Source: Candidatus Omnitrophota bacterium (GTDB lineage Bacteria; Omnitrophota; Gorgyraeia; Duberdicusellales; 4484-171). From it: 32,244 nucleotides of DNA. Location: contig JAHISK010000143.1 in NCBI GenBank assembly GCA_018818105.1, positions 1-32,244 of the forward strand, written 5' to 3'. The stretch's first letter is position 1. Each line of letters opens with the position of its first letter. Shown piece after piece: positions 14,447 to 30,746 of the stretch. Both the position numbers and the translations under genes were made by a program. The notes beneath the pieces are model-generated. The model made no database searches. It worked only from the letters and a program-made list of their open reading frames with translations, and was not told the origin of the DNA.

Positions 14447-15682
14447 ATGAAAGTTCCAAATAAAAGAGGTTATTTTGGCCAATTTGGCGGTAAATTTATT
14501 CCTGAAACGTTGACTTGTTGCTTACAGGAGTTAGAAGATACCTACAAAAAAGTAAAGAATGATAAAAAGTTTAATGAAGAGGTGGCATATTATCTTAAGG
14601 AATATGCCGGGAGACCAACATCTCTTTACTTCGCGGATAATTTAAGTAAGCTTTTAGGAATGAAGGTTTATTTGAAAAGAGAAGATCTTCTTCATACCGG
14701 TGCTCATAAAATTAATAACGCGATAGGGCAGATTTTGTTGGCTAAATTTATGGGCAAGAAACGGATTATTGCTGAAACAGGAGCTGGGCAGCACGGGGTT
14801 GCTGTTGCTACTGTGGCTAGCCTTTTTGGATATCCGTGCGAGGTTTATATGGGGGAAGAAGATATTCGGCGTCAGCGGATGAATGTTTTTCGAATGAAGA
14901 TTTTAGGGGCGAGGGTTATTCCTGTTAAAAGCGGTTCGCGAACATTGAAGGATGCTTGTTCCCAAGCTATAAGAGATTGGGTTACTAATGTAGGTGATAC
15001 TTATTATCTTATAGGGTCAACTGTAGGCCCGTATCCATATCCTTTAATTGTGAGAGATTTTCAAGCTGTTATTGGGCAAGAATCTAGAAGGCAGATTTTA
15101 AAAAAAGAGGGCAGGCTCCCTGATTATTTAGTTGCCTGTGTAGGTGGAGGAAGTAATTCTTTAGGTTTGTTTTATCCTTTTTTTAACGATAAAGGGGTTA
15201 AGTTTATTGGTGTCGAAGCTGGTGGATTTGGGTTGAGTGGTTTTAACGCTGCTTCGCTTATTAAAGGAAGAGTGGGCGTGTTGCATGGAGCAAAATCGTA
15301 TGTGCTGCAGGATAAGTTTGGTCAAATCAAAAATGCCCATTCTATTGCCGCGGGTCTGGATTATCCCGCGGTTGGTCCAGAACATGCTTTTTATAAGTCA
15401 ATGAACCGCGCGCGGTATACGGCAGTAACGGATAAATGCGCTATCAAAGGGTTTAATTTGCTTAGCCAAGTTGAAGGCATAATCCCCGCTCTTGAGTCGT
15501 CGCATGCGGTGTATTATCTTAAGAAGTTAGCCAAGAAAGCAGCCGGCAAGATAGTTTTAGTTTGCCTTTCCGGTAGAGGTGATAAAGATTTAGAAATTGT
15601 GCAGGAATATATAAACAAAAGGGCCAAGGGTCAGGGGGCAAGGGGCAAGGGAAATAGAGAGAAGAAAGGAGAGAGGAGATAG
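14447..15682 (+). CDS. trpB: Tryptophan synthase beta chain
   Basis: This 411-residue PLP enzyme condenses indole with serine. The PLP lysine lies in [13 protein letters not shown]. The glycine-rich phosphate loop is [14 protein letters not shown], and [10 protein letters not shown] is conserved. The start [17 protein letters not shown] is canonical for TrpB1. The last 20 or so residues (from [11 protein letters not shown]) are an extension encoded by a tandem heptad array (GGGCAAG type, 15621-15651) running into A/G-rich sequence; normal TrpB ends near EYINKR. An AAGGAAAG precedes the ATG. TrpA follows after 56 bp. Confidence 0.95.
15621..15651 (+). repeat. One-armed heptad array, class G (GGGCAAG type), inside trpB
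   Basis: Tandem units GGCCAAG, GGTCAGG, GGGCAAG, GGGCAAG lie in the 3' end of trpB and are translated as the C-terminal tail. No complementary arm is visible downstream. Confidence 0.65.
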
Positions 15683-20830: not shown

Positions 20831-20986
20831 CGGATATAAATTCGAAGCACGAAATTAGAAATACGAAACAAATTCGAATGATCAAAATTATAAATTTAAA
20901 AACAAAATTTTTAATCTAAGTTTAGAATTTATGTCATTATGATTTTGATAGTGTTTTGAAGTGCGATATTCGATATTCGGATTTTT
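20824..20986 (+). repeat. Heptad inverted repeat, class E (TTCGATA type), with class B remnant
   Basis: AGCATAT, AGCGGAT (20822-20835) form a short class B fragment overlapping the ROK stop. It is followed by a left arm with TTCGAAG, CACGAAA, TTAGAAA, TACGAAA. The right arm (20937-20986) contains TGCGATA, TTCGATA, TTCGGAT. The arms pair imperfectly around an A+T-rich spacer, with ATCAAAATTAT opposite ATGATTTTGAT as the inner match. Confidence 0.7.
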
Positions 20987-21001
20987 TAAAGGATGATAAT
21001 T

Positions 21002-21130
21002 ATGAAATTATTCATAGAGAAAATAATGAAGAATTCTTTAACAGACATTGGAATACAGAGGGCTCTTAGCGATTGGGATAAATTGAATAAGAGTTTGAAT
21101 GAGCATTGTGTGAAATCGGAGAACAGATGA
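21002..21130 (+). CDS. Possible 42-residue hypothetical peptide upstream of lptD
   Basis: An ATG frame with AAAGGATGAT upstream encodes MKLFIEKIMKNSLTDIGIQR and ends SLNEHCVKSENR. It is unrelated to any family I recognise. It stops inside the left arm of the class D repeat, overlapping the lptD start by 4 bp (ATGA). It may be a leader peptide coupling translation to lptD, or a remnant of a gene interrupted by the repeat. Support is only the frame, a weak ribosome-binding site and the overlap. Confidence 0.3.
   Translation: MKLFIEKIMKNSLTDIGIQRALSDWDKLNKSLNEHCVKSENR
21118..21121 (+). promoter_or_regulatory. Ribosome-binding site that decides the lptD start
   Basis: GGAG lies 5 bases before the ATG at 21127, favouring this start over the in-frame TTG at 21106. 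Confidence 0.55.
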
Positions 21131-21256
21131 CAGAAAACAGAAGACAGAAGACGGAAGGTAAACAAGGGCTATCGGCTATTAGCTGGCAGCTTAAAATTTT
21201 TCTTCGAAAAATTTTAAGGAAGTCTGTTGTCTGTTGTCTGTTGTCTGTTGTCTGTT
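21123..21256 (+). repeat. Heptad inverted repeat, class D (GTCTGTT type), inside lptD
   Basis: The left arm (21123-21152) reads ACAGATG, ACAGAAA, ACAGAAG, ACAGAAG. The right arm (21222-21256) is five perfect copies of GTCTGTT. Between them lie a second heptad type (GGCTATC, GGCTATT, AGCTGGC) and a perfect 13-bp hairpin, CTTAAAATTTTTC/GAAAAATTTTAAG (21190-21218). The whole element is in frame and encodes the start and signal peptide of LptD. Confidence 0.9.
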
Positions 21257-23556
21257 CTTTTGCGGCATTCGCGCAAGCGCAGGAGGAAGGGCAAGGAGAG
21301 GTTTATGATTATCAGGAATACCCCAATGGGATAGAACAAGACCAGCTGGAAGTTTTCCAAAATCAGGAAATAGATTCACTATCTCAGGAAGAGTCCGCGG
21401 AAAAAACATGGGAAGACGAGAAGCAAGATTTGGCGCAGCCAAAAGGAGAAAAGGTTCCAGTAATCATTGATGGAGATGAGCTTAGTTATCTTCATGGTAA
21501 AGGACAAATTGTCGCTAAAGGAAATGTGAGGGTCACTAATAATAATATTACTTTGTTTTGTGATGAAATTGATTATGATGCCAAGACCTATCTGGCGCAT
21601 TTAAAAGGGAATGTGAAGATAGTAAAGACAGAGGTCGTGGCCGTTGAGGGAAAAGATGAGGAGGAAGAAAAAATTTCTACTATTTATGGCAAAGATGTGG
21701 TTTTTAATTTCCAGACTAAAGATGCCCAAATTGTAGATGTTAGAATGGAAGATCCTCCTATCTACGGTGAAGCCCAGAGCGCGGATAAAATTGGTGATGA
21801 GAAGTTTATTCTTAAAAGAAAAAGTTATTTTACTACCTGTGATTTAAAAAATCCGCATTATAAAATAACCGCGCGCCGTATAACGGTGTATCCAAAAGAT
21901 AGGATTATCGCAAGAGATGTGGTTTTCAAAGTATTGGATGTTCCGCTTATGTATTTGCCTTATTTTACGCATTCGCTTAAAGATAAATGGTTTCCTATTC
22001 AGATAGTTCCCGGTAAGGATCGAGAGTTGGGTGGATGTTTTGTGCGCAATAGCGTAAGATATGACCTTAATAAAGACAATAGAGGAAAGTTGCATGTTGA
22101 CTGGTATGATAAGCGAAAGCTAGGTGTGGGTATATCTCATAAGACTGATAGTGCTAAGTTTGGGGAGGCGTTGATTAAGTATTACGCTATTCAGGATGAG
22201 GCTTACGATAGAGAGTTAAGAGGGGATTTGTTTAAGCGGTATCCCGAACGAAGGAATACGGCAGAGAAGTATTTGGAAGATGACCGGTATCGCGCGCAAA
22301 TTTCTCATGAGTGGAATCCAATAGATAGGTTGTCTATAAAAAGTGAGTTTCATAAGTTTTCCGATGATAATTTTGTGAAAGATTTTTTCTTTCGCGAATA
22401 CGAAGTTGATCCGAATCCTTTATCGTATAACCTTATTGATTATTCTTTTTCTAATTCTTCAGTGTCTTTACTTACGCAAAAGAGAGTGAATCATTATAGT
22501 TCTCAAGTAGAATATTTGCCGCAGGTAGAGTACAATTTGTTCCGGCAAAATTTAGGGGCAAGTAAATTTTATTTTGAGTCCCAGGCGGCTTTAGGTAATT
22601 TAACCAGTAAAACAGCCCATTCAGATGTAGATAAGGATGTTGACCGATTTTACTCGCATAGTACGTTGAGTTATGATGGTAAGCTAAAGTGGTTGAGTCT
22701 TAACCCTTATATAGGAGGGTACGCCAACGTGTATTCTAAAGACGCCTTTGGTGATGAAGGGCTTTGGCGGGGAGCGTTTGAGACAGGGACCGATTTAAAC
22801 ACAAAGCTATATAAGGTATTTGGCGCGAATTTTAATATGTTAGGGAAAAAAGTAAAACTGATGCGGCATGTGGTAACGCCAAATGTTACTTATTCATATA
22901 AACACGATCCAACAGTTTCTAATACCAATGTCTTATCGTTTGATGGTAAAGATAGTATTACTAGGGCAGAATCAGCGGTTTTTAGCTTGAGTAATAAATT
23001 ACAAGCAAAGACAGAAGAGGGTACTGTTTGGGACTTTTTATATTTTAGCCCGTCAGTAAATTATCTTATTCATCCCGAAGGAGCTGCGAGTAGGTTTACG
23101 ACGGTAAATACAAATTTGGAAGTTTATCCTGTCGAAGGGATATCTTTAAATGCCAGCAAGGTTTATACTGTTGCTGATAGAAGAATTACTAGCGTCAATG
23201 TTGACCTTAAGTTTGAAGATACCAGTGGTGAAGGAAAATATGTTGTTTCTTTAGGTCACAGATATGCTCGCCATAGTAGCACACAGGGTACTTTTAATCT
23301 TGAATATCAGATTTTACCAAAAGTAAATTTTAAAAATTACCTGCGTTTTGAGCATAACACAGGGGATTTGCTGGAAAGAATGTTTGGAGTAAGACTGGAT
23401 TTACACTGTTGGTGGCTGGATTTAGGATACAGAATGGATAAACAAAGAGAGGGCGTTAATAATAATTCTGTCTGGATGATTTTTAGTTTAAAAGCGTTTC
23501 CTGATATGGAAGTTGTGTTTGATGAAAGTTATAAGGGAGCAAAAAGGAGATATTAA
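21127..23556 (+). CDS. lptD: LPS-assembly outer-membrane protein LptD
   Basis: About 809 residues from ATG 21127. The protein forms the outer-membrane barrel that inserts lipopolysaccharide, with LptE and the LptA bridge. After the signal peptide comes an acidic linker and an LptA/OstA-like beta-jellyroll (VIIDGDELSYLHGKGQIVAKG...NNITLFCDEIDYD). The LptD signature follows (YFTTCDLKNPHYKITARRI, then DVPLMYLPYF), and then the long barrel domain ending in alternating aromatic strands. The signal peptide is unusual. Its basic n-region (KIFLRKILRK) comes from the inner palindrome of a class D repeat, and its hydrophobic core (SVVCCLLSVVCSF) is five GTCTGTT heptads, with AFAQA as a cleavage site. 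It is followed by ugd after 2 bp. Confidence 0.93.
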   Translation: MTENRRQKTEGKQGLSAISWQLKIFLRKILRKSVVCCLLSVVCSFAAFAQAQEEGQGEVYDYQEYPNGIEQDQLEVFQNQEIDSLSQEESAEKTWEDEKQDLAQPKGEKVPVIIDGDELSYLHGKGQIVAKGNVRVTNNNITLFCDEIDYDAKTYLAHLKGNVKIVKTEVVAVEGKDEEEEKISTIYGKDVVFNFQTKDAQIVDVRMEDPPIYGEAQSADKIGDEKFILKRKSYFTTCDLKNPHYKITARRITVYPKDRIIARDVVFKVLDVPLMYLPYFTHSLKDKWFPIQIVPGKDRELGGCFVRNSVRYDLNKDNRGKLHVDWYDKRKLGVGISHKTDSAKFGEALIKYYAIQDEAYDRELRGDLFKRYPERRNTAEKYLEDDRYRAQISHEWNPIDRLSIKSEFHKFSDDNFVKDFFFREYEVDPNPLSYNLIDYSFSNSSVSLLTQKRVNHYSSQVEYLPQVEYNLFRQNLGASKFYFESQAALGNLTSKTAHSDVDKDVDRFYSHSTLSYDGKLKWLSLNPYIGGYANVYSKDAFGDEGLWRGAFETGTDLNTKLYKVFGANFNMLGKKVKLMRHVVTPNVTYSYKHDPTVSNTNVLSFDGKDSITRAESAVFSLSNKLQAKTEEGTVWDFLYFSPSVNYLIHPEGAASRFTTVNTNLEVYPVEGISLNASKVYTVADRRITSVNVDLKFEDTSGEGKYVVSLGHRYARHSSTQGTFNLEYQILPKVNFKNYLRFEHNTGDLLERMFGVRLDLHCWWLDLGYRMDKQREGVNNNSVWMIFSLKAFPDMEVVFDESYKGAKRRY

Positions 23557-27527: not shown

Positions 27528-27884
27528 ATGAAAGTAGAAAGGCCGTGGGGTTGTTATACCGTTTTGAATGAAGGAGCAGGGTTTAAGGTTAAGCTTGTTG
27601 AGGTTTTGCCTTATAAAAAATTAAGCCTTCAGAAACATAAGTGTAGAAGTGAGCATTGGGTTGTTGTTGAGGGACAAGCTCAAGTTGCCAATGATGGACA
27701 AACGTATTGTTTAAAGCCTAATGAAAGTATTTATATTTCTAAGAACAGTGTACACCGTTTAGAAAATAATGAAGATACAGTATTGAAAATAATTGAGGTT
27801 CAGTGTGGTGATTATTTAGAAGAGGACGATATAGAAAGATTAGAAGATGAATACCAAAGAGATAGCGTAGAGCGTAGAGCGTAG
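27528..27884 (+). CDS. Cupin protein, mannose-6-phosphate isomerase type II domain
   Basis: This 118-residue single-domain cupin matches the C-terminal domain of ManC/AlgA (PMI type II): N-terminal ERPWGCYTVL, LQKHKCRSEHWVVVEG with metal-ligand His and Glu residues, and ISKNSVHRLEN. It could isomerise mannose-6-phosphate and fructose-6-phosphate for GDP-mannose supply, but as a lone domain its activity is uncertain. The last residues (DSVERRA) and the stop codon are encoded by the left arm of a class B repeat. Confidence 0.82.
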   Translation: MKVERPWGCYTVLNEGAGFKVKLVEVLPYKKLSLQKHKCRSEHWVVVEGQAQVANDGQTYCLKPNESIYISKNSVHRLENNEDTVLKIIEVQCGDYLEEDDIERLEDEYQRDSVERRA

Positions 27885-29586: not shown

Positions 29587-29592
29587 AAGGAG
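29587..29592 (+). promoter_or_regulatory. Ribosome-binding site that decides the aminotransferase start
   Basis: AAGGAG lies 5 bases before the ATG at 29598, preferring it to the in-frame GTG at 29592, which overlaps the site itself. Confidence 0.7.
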
Positions 29593-29597
29593 TGAAG

Positions 29598-30746
29598 ATG
29601 AGAATACCATTATTAGATTTAAAACGCGAGTATGAATATTTAAAGACAGATATTGATAAAGCCGTTAGAGAATGTTTTGAATCACAGCGTTGGATTTTAG
29701 GGCCGCAGGTAAAGGAATTTGAACATCAGGCATCAAAGTATCTGGGAGTAAAATTTGCTTTTGGCGTTGCTTCGGGAACTGATGCCTTAGTTCTCGCATT
29801 GAGCGCGTTAGCGTTGAAGCTGAAAGGTAAAGAATTTTTTGATAAAGAAGATGAAATTATAACAACGCCGTTTACCTTTGTGGCGACAGCCGAAGCAATT
29901 GTTCGCTGCGGAGCTACTCCTGTATTTGTTGATATAAATCCTGATACATATAATATTTGTCCTGAGGCAATAAAGAAAGCTGTTACTAAAAATACAATAG
30001 GTATTATTCCTGTGCATTTGTATGGATTACCGGCAGATATGAATAGTATTTTGGAAATAGCGAAAGATAATGATTTGTTTGTAGTCGAAGATACGGCGCA
30101 GGCGTTTGGTGCTGAATATAGAGGCAAAAGAGTGGGGACGTTAGGGGATATAGGAGCGTTTAGCTGTTTTCCATCAAAAAATCTGGGTGGCTGCGGGGAT
30201 GGAGGGTTGATTGTGGCTAATGATTTAGAACTAGCCGAGTTTACTCGGGTGTTAAGAAATCATGGTCAGAAGAAGAAATATGATGCTGATTTTACCGGAT
30301 ATAATTCGAGGCTGGATTCAATTCAGGCCGCTATTTTAAACGTTAAATTAAAACATATCGATAAATTTAATGAATTACGAAGGGGTGTTGCTCAACGATA
30401 TGATGATGCGTTTAGTTCAGTAAAGGAAATACAAGTTCCCAAGCTGACAGCTGATAGCAGAAAGCAGATAGCTAATCTTAACCATGTCTATCATTTGTAT
30501 ACCATAAAAGTAGATGCTGATAGGGATAAGCTTTTAGAATATATTAATTCCAAGGGTATTGAGTCGCGAGTTTATTATCCCGTACTTCTTCATAAAATGG
30601 CGGCGTTTAAGCGTGGGAAAGTTTGTGGTGATTTAAAAAATAGCGAAGATGTATTATCGAGAGTTTTAACTTTGCCGATTCATCCTTTTTTAAAAGAAGA
30701 GGAGATAGAGTTTATTATAGAAGCTTTAAAAGATCATTTTAAATAA
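29598..30746 (+). CDS. DegT/DnrJ/EryC1 family sugar aminotransferase (WbpE-like)
   Basis: This 382-residue PLP enzyme transfers an amino group to a keto-nucleotide sugar. The family start MRIPLLDLKREY, the VASGTDALVLAL cofactor-binding segment, VVEDTAQAFGAEY with the pyridine-N aspartate, and the Schiff-base lysine in CFPSKNLGGCGDGG (about residue 195) are all present. Together with the WbpA-like dehydrogenase it could make a 3-amino-HexNAc uronate as in the WbpA-B-E route, though the WbpB oxidase and acetyltransferase are not seen here. Confidence 0.9.
   Translation: MRIPLLDLKREYEYLKTDIDKAVRECFESQRWILGPQVKEFEHQASKYLGVKFAFGVASGTDALVLALSALALKLKGKEFFDKEDEIITTPFTFVATAEAIVRCGATPVFVDINPDTYNICPEAIKKAVTKNTIGIIPVHLYGLPADMNSILEIAKDNDLFVVEDTAQAFGAEYRGKRVGTLGDIGAFSCFPSKNLGGCGDGGLIVANDLELAEFTRVLRNHGQKKKYDADFTGYNSRLDSIQAAILNVKLKHIDKFNELRRGVAQRYDDAFSSVKEIQVPKLTADSRKQIANLNHVYHLYTIKVDADRDKLLEYINSKGIESRVYYPVLLHKMAAFKRGKVCGDLKNSEDVLSRVLTLPIHPFLKEEEIEFIIEALKDHFK

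Follow-up and report, generated by a model that had tools for sequence, protein, structure and literature searches.

How does a gene for an exported protein come to have its start inside an interspersed repeat, and does the repeat then encode the export signal? The question is raised by lptD (21127..23556, + strand), a single-copy gene for an outer-membrane protein in a 32,244-nt stretch of DNA from an uncultured Omnitrophota bacterium; this stretch, at its full length, is referred to as the window. Our reading, to which we give a probability of about 0.8 (a joint figure for the explanation as a whole), is that the repeat supplies both the LptD start codon and its membrane-targeting signal.

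Structure of the heptad inverted repeat

On direct reading, the 5' end of lptD is a heptad inverted repeat of about 21120-21260, in frame with the gene. The initial annotation had placed the element at 21123-21256, a placement accurate to a few bases, but the left arm opens about three bases earlier, at 21120. We prefer 21120-21260 because the arms are then in matching register, with five heptads each and an AGAA/TTCT end common to both. The left arm (21120..21157, +) consists of AGAA and five degenerate CAGAAGA-type heptads (AGAA-CAGATGA-CAGAAAA-CAGAAGA-CAGAAGA-CGGAAGG), which Tandem Repeats Finder reports as 5 copies at 85% over 21123-21157. It holds the ATG and encodes MTENRRQKTEG, the hydrophilic start of the n-region. 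Beyond it lies a degenerate heptad run, GCTATCG-GCTATTA-GCTGGCA (21167..21191, +), that forms a small hairpin of its own and encodes GLSAISWQL; the peptide GLSAISWQLK, between the left-arm peptide and KIFLRKILRK, thus comes from degenerate GCTATTA-type heptads.

The center of the element is the palindrome CTTAAAATTTTTC-TTC-GAAAAATTTTAAG (21190..21218, +), a stem-loop with a perfect 13-bp stem and a 3-nt loop. Its translation, LKIFLRKILRK, is the basic stretch preceding the core, in agreement with the earlier claim that KIFLRKILRK is read from a central perfect palindrome. The right arm (21222..21256, +) contains five GTCTGTT copies (Tandem Repeats Finder: 21222-21256, GTCTGTT x5, 100%), and complementarity to the left arm extends to ~21260. 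The five copies translate to the hydrophobic core SVVCCLLSVVC, also as first proposed. The encoded N-terminal peptide is MTENRRQKTEGKQGLSAISWQLKIFLRKILRK-SVVCCLLSVVC-SFAAFA/QAQ, where the slash, here and below, marks a predicted cleavage site. Two parts of the original description are narrowed by this anatomy. The element had been called a class D element, and the arms do place it in that family, but other GTCTGTT arrays in the genome differ in their centers or lack a partner arm. It had also been said to lie wholly in the lptD frame, which is true of everything 3' of 21127, but not of the first bases of the element, which opens 5' of the ATG.

As RNA, the element folds with an energy of -62.6 kcal/mol (z = -7.0), and the Shine-Dalgarno sequence and AUG of lptD are both paired. 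A fold of this kind might indicate that the element is chiefly an RNA regulator, in which the hairpin hides the lptD Shine-Dalgarno sequence and AUG to control translation and signal coding is secondary. The repeat at batD in a relative's genome (G011), which folds at -55.9 with the start within the stem, is consistent with such a role. However, a secretin repeat with the same layout as that of lptD (described below) folds no better than shuffled sequences (z = +1.3), and the lptD element has no Rfam match. The secretin case suggests that the hairpin degenerates but the coding persists, which weakens the regulatory explanation, and we consider it unlikely.

Start codon and predicted signal peptide

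The 816-aa open frame of lptD contains LptD_N and LptD_2 domains, and its matches to PF03968 (LptD_N, OstA; 23.4 bits) and PF19838 (25.8 bits) are both over the cut-off, which identifies the product as LptD; it is the sole LptD match in the genome. ATG 21127, within the left arm as originally annotated, is the only plausible start. A search for a downstream start with a signal of its own found none, the only in-frame ATG, GTG or TTG before the mature protein being TTG 21241, inside the hydrophobic core. The putative Shine-Dalgarno sequence GGAG (21118..21121, +) is located 5 nt before the ATG, and is half host and half element. The array copy number comes from a draft metagenome assembly (157 contigs), and TTG 21106 is a possible upstream start; the signal peptide might be an artefact of misassembly, or the true start might lie elsewhere. 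A start at TTG 21106 would merely lengthen the n-region, however. Against misassembly, a one-unit miscount would break the frame, the frame is not interrupted in either arm, and the arrangement recurs in independent genomes. We regard either error as very improbable.

Neither of the two other frames can be read into the core, as each meets a stop (at 21215 and 21192). Perfect tandem copies within a reading frame whose alternatives are closed could act as a frameshift switch, LptD being turned off when one heptad (7 nt) is added or lost, as at contingency loci. LptD is nevertheless expected to be essential, and its loss would be met by no rescuing frame or second copy, which leaves a switch of this type hardly credible.

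The predicted Sec signal peptide (21127..21273, +) is 49 aa long if cleavage occurs at AFA/Q, or 51 aa (to 21279) if it occurs at AQA/Q, with the site aligned by eye with LptD orthologs. It has the sequence features of a Sec signal processed by signal peptidase I, i.e., the basic KIFLRKILRK, a hydrophobic core, and small residues at -3 and -1 (AFA/Q). The predicted n-region is long (32 aa), and the core has a mean hydropathy of 2.75, as compared with a range of 1.7-3.7 in LptD orthologs. Judged from these features, the N-terminus probably serves as an export signal. The left arm and central palindrome would form its basic, hydrophilic n-region and the right arm its hydrophobic core, and signal peptidase I would cleave after AFA or AQA.

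Comparison with orthologs and the transaldolase junction

The signal peptides of LptD orthologs are mostly non-repetitive, and end at a similar xFAQ/xFSQ-type site. They are unrelated to the signal described here, and the same peptide encoded by non-repeat DNA was not seen in the relatives, so that the repeat origin first suggested for it holds in this comparison. SFAAFAQ resembles the cleavage region of the relatives, and everything before SFAAFAQ is repeat.

In the relatives examined, a full transaldolase/F6P-aldolase gene is usually found upstream, with lptD close behind and having an ordinary signal peptide. Here, only the last ~30 codons of that gene are present (21002..21130, +), as an open remnant of a gene that is full length in relatives. 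The remnant is a 42-codon ORF in which, after MKLF, ~30 residues match the C-terminus of the relatives' enzyme; a TAL_FSA (PF00923) gene was not found anywhere else in this genome. Where the rest of the transaldolase gene would be expected, there is a second repeat, GAAATACGAAAC ... CGATATTCGATATTCG (20838..20979, +; region 20831-20990). The remnant has its own Shine-Dalgarno-like AGGA (20990-20993), and its TGA overlaps the lptD ATG as ATGA.

The simplest history for this arrangement would be that the heptad inverted repeat inserted where transaldolase and lptD meet and took the place of an older LptD signal as regards its start, n-region and hydrophobic core, with the cleavage region SFAAFAQ alone left from the ancestral gene. 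Translation of LptD would now begin at the left-arm ATG. We infer the insertion and the state that preceded it, since the nearest relatives have at most 54% LptD identity and no same-genus genome was found among the sets searched. Because the lptD Shine-Dalgarno sequence and AUG are paired in a very stable hairpin, initiation is expected to be hindered unless the hairpin is opened. Ribosomes finishing the transaldolase remnant may help to open it, by way of the ATGA overlap; alternatively, lptD initiation might occur before the right arm is transcribed.

A reading rule for heptad arrays

The initial annotation also stated that a heptad array encodes the same 7-residue cycle in all frames, and a check of all non-homopolymer heptamers found this to be exact. 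The hydropathies of a heptad and its complement are inversely related (r = -0.71), and the complement is hydrophilic for 95% of the hydrophobic heptads with no stop on either strand, because codons with a middle T (hydrophobic) are complementary to codons with a middle A (hydrophilic). It follows from the frame-independent cycle and the opposite hydropathy of the arms that a single inverted repeat can provide both a basic n-region and a hydrophobic core. With the A-rich strand as the left arm, a hydrophilic reading precedes a hydrophobic one in both orientations of the element, as it does in a signal peptide. The rule is not general to every array: at least one strand of most arrays contains a stop, and elements that contain a stop or have the opposite polarity cannot encode the n-region/core pair.

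Abundance and distribution of period-7 arrays

The window contains 11 period-7 arrays, and none at six other periods tested. Our genome sample covers ~936 kb of 2.03 Mb (under half, from the draft assembly), and has 134 period-7 arrays versus at most 10 at any of the other periods tested. The arrays comprise many heptamer classes, rather than one specific heptamer. These dispersed tandem heptads are enriched between genes, with 83 of 115 arrays being intergenic or at gene edges. Exact GTCTGTT arrays are represented in only 6 of 285 genomes, mostly outside signal peptides, because other genomes use other heptamers; the exact array was dropped as a phylum-wide marker for this reason.

Two side observations concern the ends of contigs and genes. 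At locus L100 (11357-11505), a near-perfect ACAAGTA-type array of ~20 copies reaches the end of contig C11, which suggests that the assembly breaks at such arrays. At several gene 3' ends (window 15619-15682 and 27858-27884; L117, L123 and L124), heptad arrays overlap the coding sequence and give basic C-terminal tails such as KGQGSRGK.

Recurrence in other export signals

Two-arm elements occur in frame in lptD, in a secretin gene of the same genome, and in batD of G011. The secretin (Pfam Secretin, 142 bits) begins MIKKPKTEDQRSKPKK...FFIFCFVFSVVSLLSVVCCLNAYAQ/EGG, in which the left arm is the n-region and the right arm is the core, and it shares this n-region plus core layout with lptD (MIKKPKTEDQRSKPKK...VFSVVSLLSVVCCLNAYAQ). 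Most relatives of this secretin have unrelated signals. The BatD protein of G011 has both arms (MMDEGRVMREGGRKK...ILHPSSFILH), with four perfect ATCCTTC copies.

Other cases are less complete in their geometry. Within the same genome, the core of BatD ends in heptads, and heptads also lie in the leader or core of two pilin-like genes and one small lipoprotein-like gene. Among the relatives, two further lineages have such runs in lptD: the LptD of one (G021) has two different heptad runs, in the core or its flank, and that of the other (G030) has a TATCCTT pair plus a complementary run at its start. In a relative (G040), the signals of a secretin, LptE (PF04390) and a T2SSB-like protein contain heptads, as does an unnamed protein.

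Among the sampled genomes, signal-like regions with a lag-7 score of at least 16 of 21 were found in 11 genes, versus 0-2 genes for lags 5, 8, 10, 11 and 13, where "signal-like" is a crude definition that includes membrane anchors. At low thresholds, lag 7 stands out only modestly in the small ortholog set, because a T-rich core increases the score at every lag; our claim of recurrence is based on direct reading and on the cases that pass the high threshold. One high lag-7 score (L189) was discarded as being due solely to masked Ns.

These examples bring us to a broader proposal, which we hold at about even odds: that inverted heptad repeats provide the Omnitrophota with portable export signals, and that the signals of core envelope proteins (LptD, LptE, secretins and BatD) turn over repeatedly by repeat capture. 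On our main reading, the arrays, which are mainly intergenic, can be read in as signal where one extends into the 5' end of an exported protein's gene.

Arrays at non-exported genes and inside enzymes

At non-exported genes (HemW-, alanine-racemase-, PhoH-, ScpA-, RuvB- and MurA-like, with names judged by eye), the arrays end upstream of the conserved ATG. By hand count, an array is read into the N-terminus in 6 of 234 signal/TM-like genes, and in 0 of 516 others (p = 9e-4).

Arrays also occur in frame inside enzymes, where the reading is hydrophilic. ValS (L088:11603-14329), the product of an essential gene, contains three separate in-frame heptad arrays, each located in a loop that varies in all relatives; some relatives hold other low-complexity inserts in their ValS loops. 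Single in-frame arrays, all hydrophilic, are found in MnmE, Mur-ligase/FolC-like, PyrK-like, MiaB-like, CarB-like, PurQ-like, DapF-like and DegT-type genes (L085, L092, L100, L120, L137, L265 and window 29592-30746), among others. The hydrophilic bias is partly due to stop codons on the other strand, while the in-enzyme arrays that are open on both strands, which are small in number, all read in the hydrophilic direction. Hydrophobic array readings were found in export signals, at positions upstream of the true start, or in doubtful ORFs.

This distribution bears on whether the lptD repeat is adaptive. Signal peptides accept highly varied sequence, and intergenic repeats may simply drift into gene starts, where only the N-termini of signal peptides are loose enough to take them; the repeat would then be used, but would confer nothing. 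Tolerated insertion of this kind is favored by the permissiveness of signal peptides, by the largely intergenic position of the arrays, by their ending before the conserved ATG of non-exported genes, by the N-terminal count given above, and by the placement of the ValS arrays in variable surface loops. We think it somewhat probable. It bears on selection only, and is compatible with our main reading that the repeat encodes the start and signal. The initial annotation spoke of domestication, and this is apt insofar as the gene now takes its start and core from the repeat and relies on them, but a tolerated insertion into the most permissive part of a protein would explain the arrangement as well as an adaptive event. 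That annotation did not mention the recurrence of the event, the opposite hydropathy of complementary arms, or the decayed transaldolase gene with a stop that overlaps the lptD start.

Significance and relation to known repeat systems

The encoding of the LptD signal by a repeat would provide a concrete and repeatable route from non-coding repeat DNA to the export signals of outer-membrane biogenesis and secretion genes. A simple rule predicts which repeats can serve as signals, and in which arm order, so that the origin of new signal peptides becomes a directly testable question. There is also a warning for gene-callers: in genomes of this type, an N-terminus derived from a repeat may be genuine. 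We found neither the recurrent use in export signals nor the two-arm hydropathy rule in PMC10969869, PMC4679880 or searches of the open-access literature.

Several known systems share parts of this arrangement, the nearest being Rickettsia palindromic elements and intergenic heptanucleotide repeats. REP/BIME elements with RAYT transposases are similar in being small, high-copy inverted repeats, and this genome has Y1_Tnp genes (7 matches), but no fixed REP core was seen among the heptad elements. Y1_Tnp (RAYT-like) transposase genes or fragments lie on contigs C53, C123, C82, C57, C59 and C138 of this genome (G000), and these transposases are possible candidates for the movers of heptad repeats. 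The G-rich heptameric repeats of Xanthomonas and Nostoc form abundant dispersed arrays near genes (PMC4692102), and are alike in abundance and gene proximity; they differ in their proposed role, which is regulation by G-quadruplexes.

Rickettsia palindromic elements (RPEs) are ~150-bp palindromic repeats that lie in frame in unrelated genes and are translated within the product (PMC10969869). A palindromic element in frame in unrelated genes is also what we find, in both two-arm and single-array cases. RPE families each encode a conserved peptide, however, whereas heptad elements have variable centers and belong to many heptamer classes. RPEs are not described as signal peptides (PMC10969869), and the heptad arrays in mature enzymes are read on the hydrophilic strand.

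Similar too are the cyanobacterial heptad repeats generally, and in particular the TAACTGA heptanucleotide direct repeats of Beggiatoaceae and Cyanobacteria, which are intergenic and near start codons (PMC4679880). One strand of the TAACTGA repeat encodes the 7-residue cycle LSVISYQ, and insertions are tolerated at protein ends (PMC4679880). As here, these are dispersed tandem heptads enriched between genes. They differ in that one heptamer makes up the repeat and just one inverted case is recorded, whereas the arrays described here include many classes in inverted-repeat pairs, and have export signals as their recurrent coding use.
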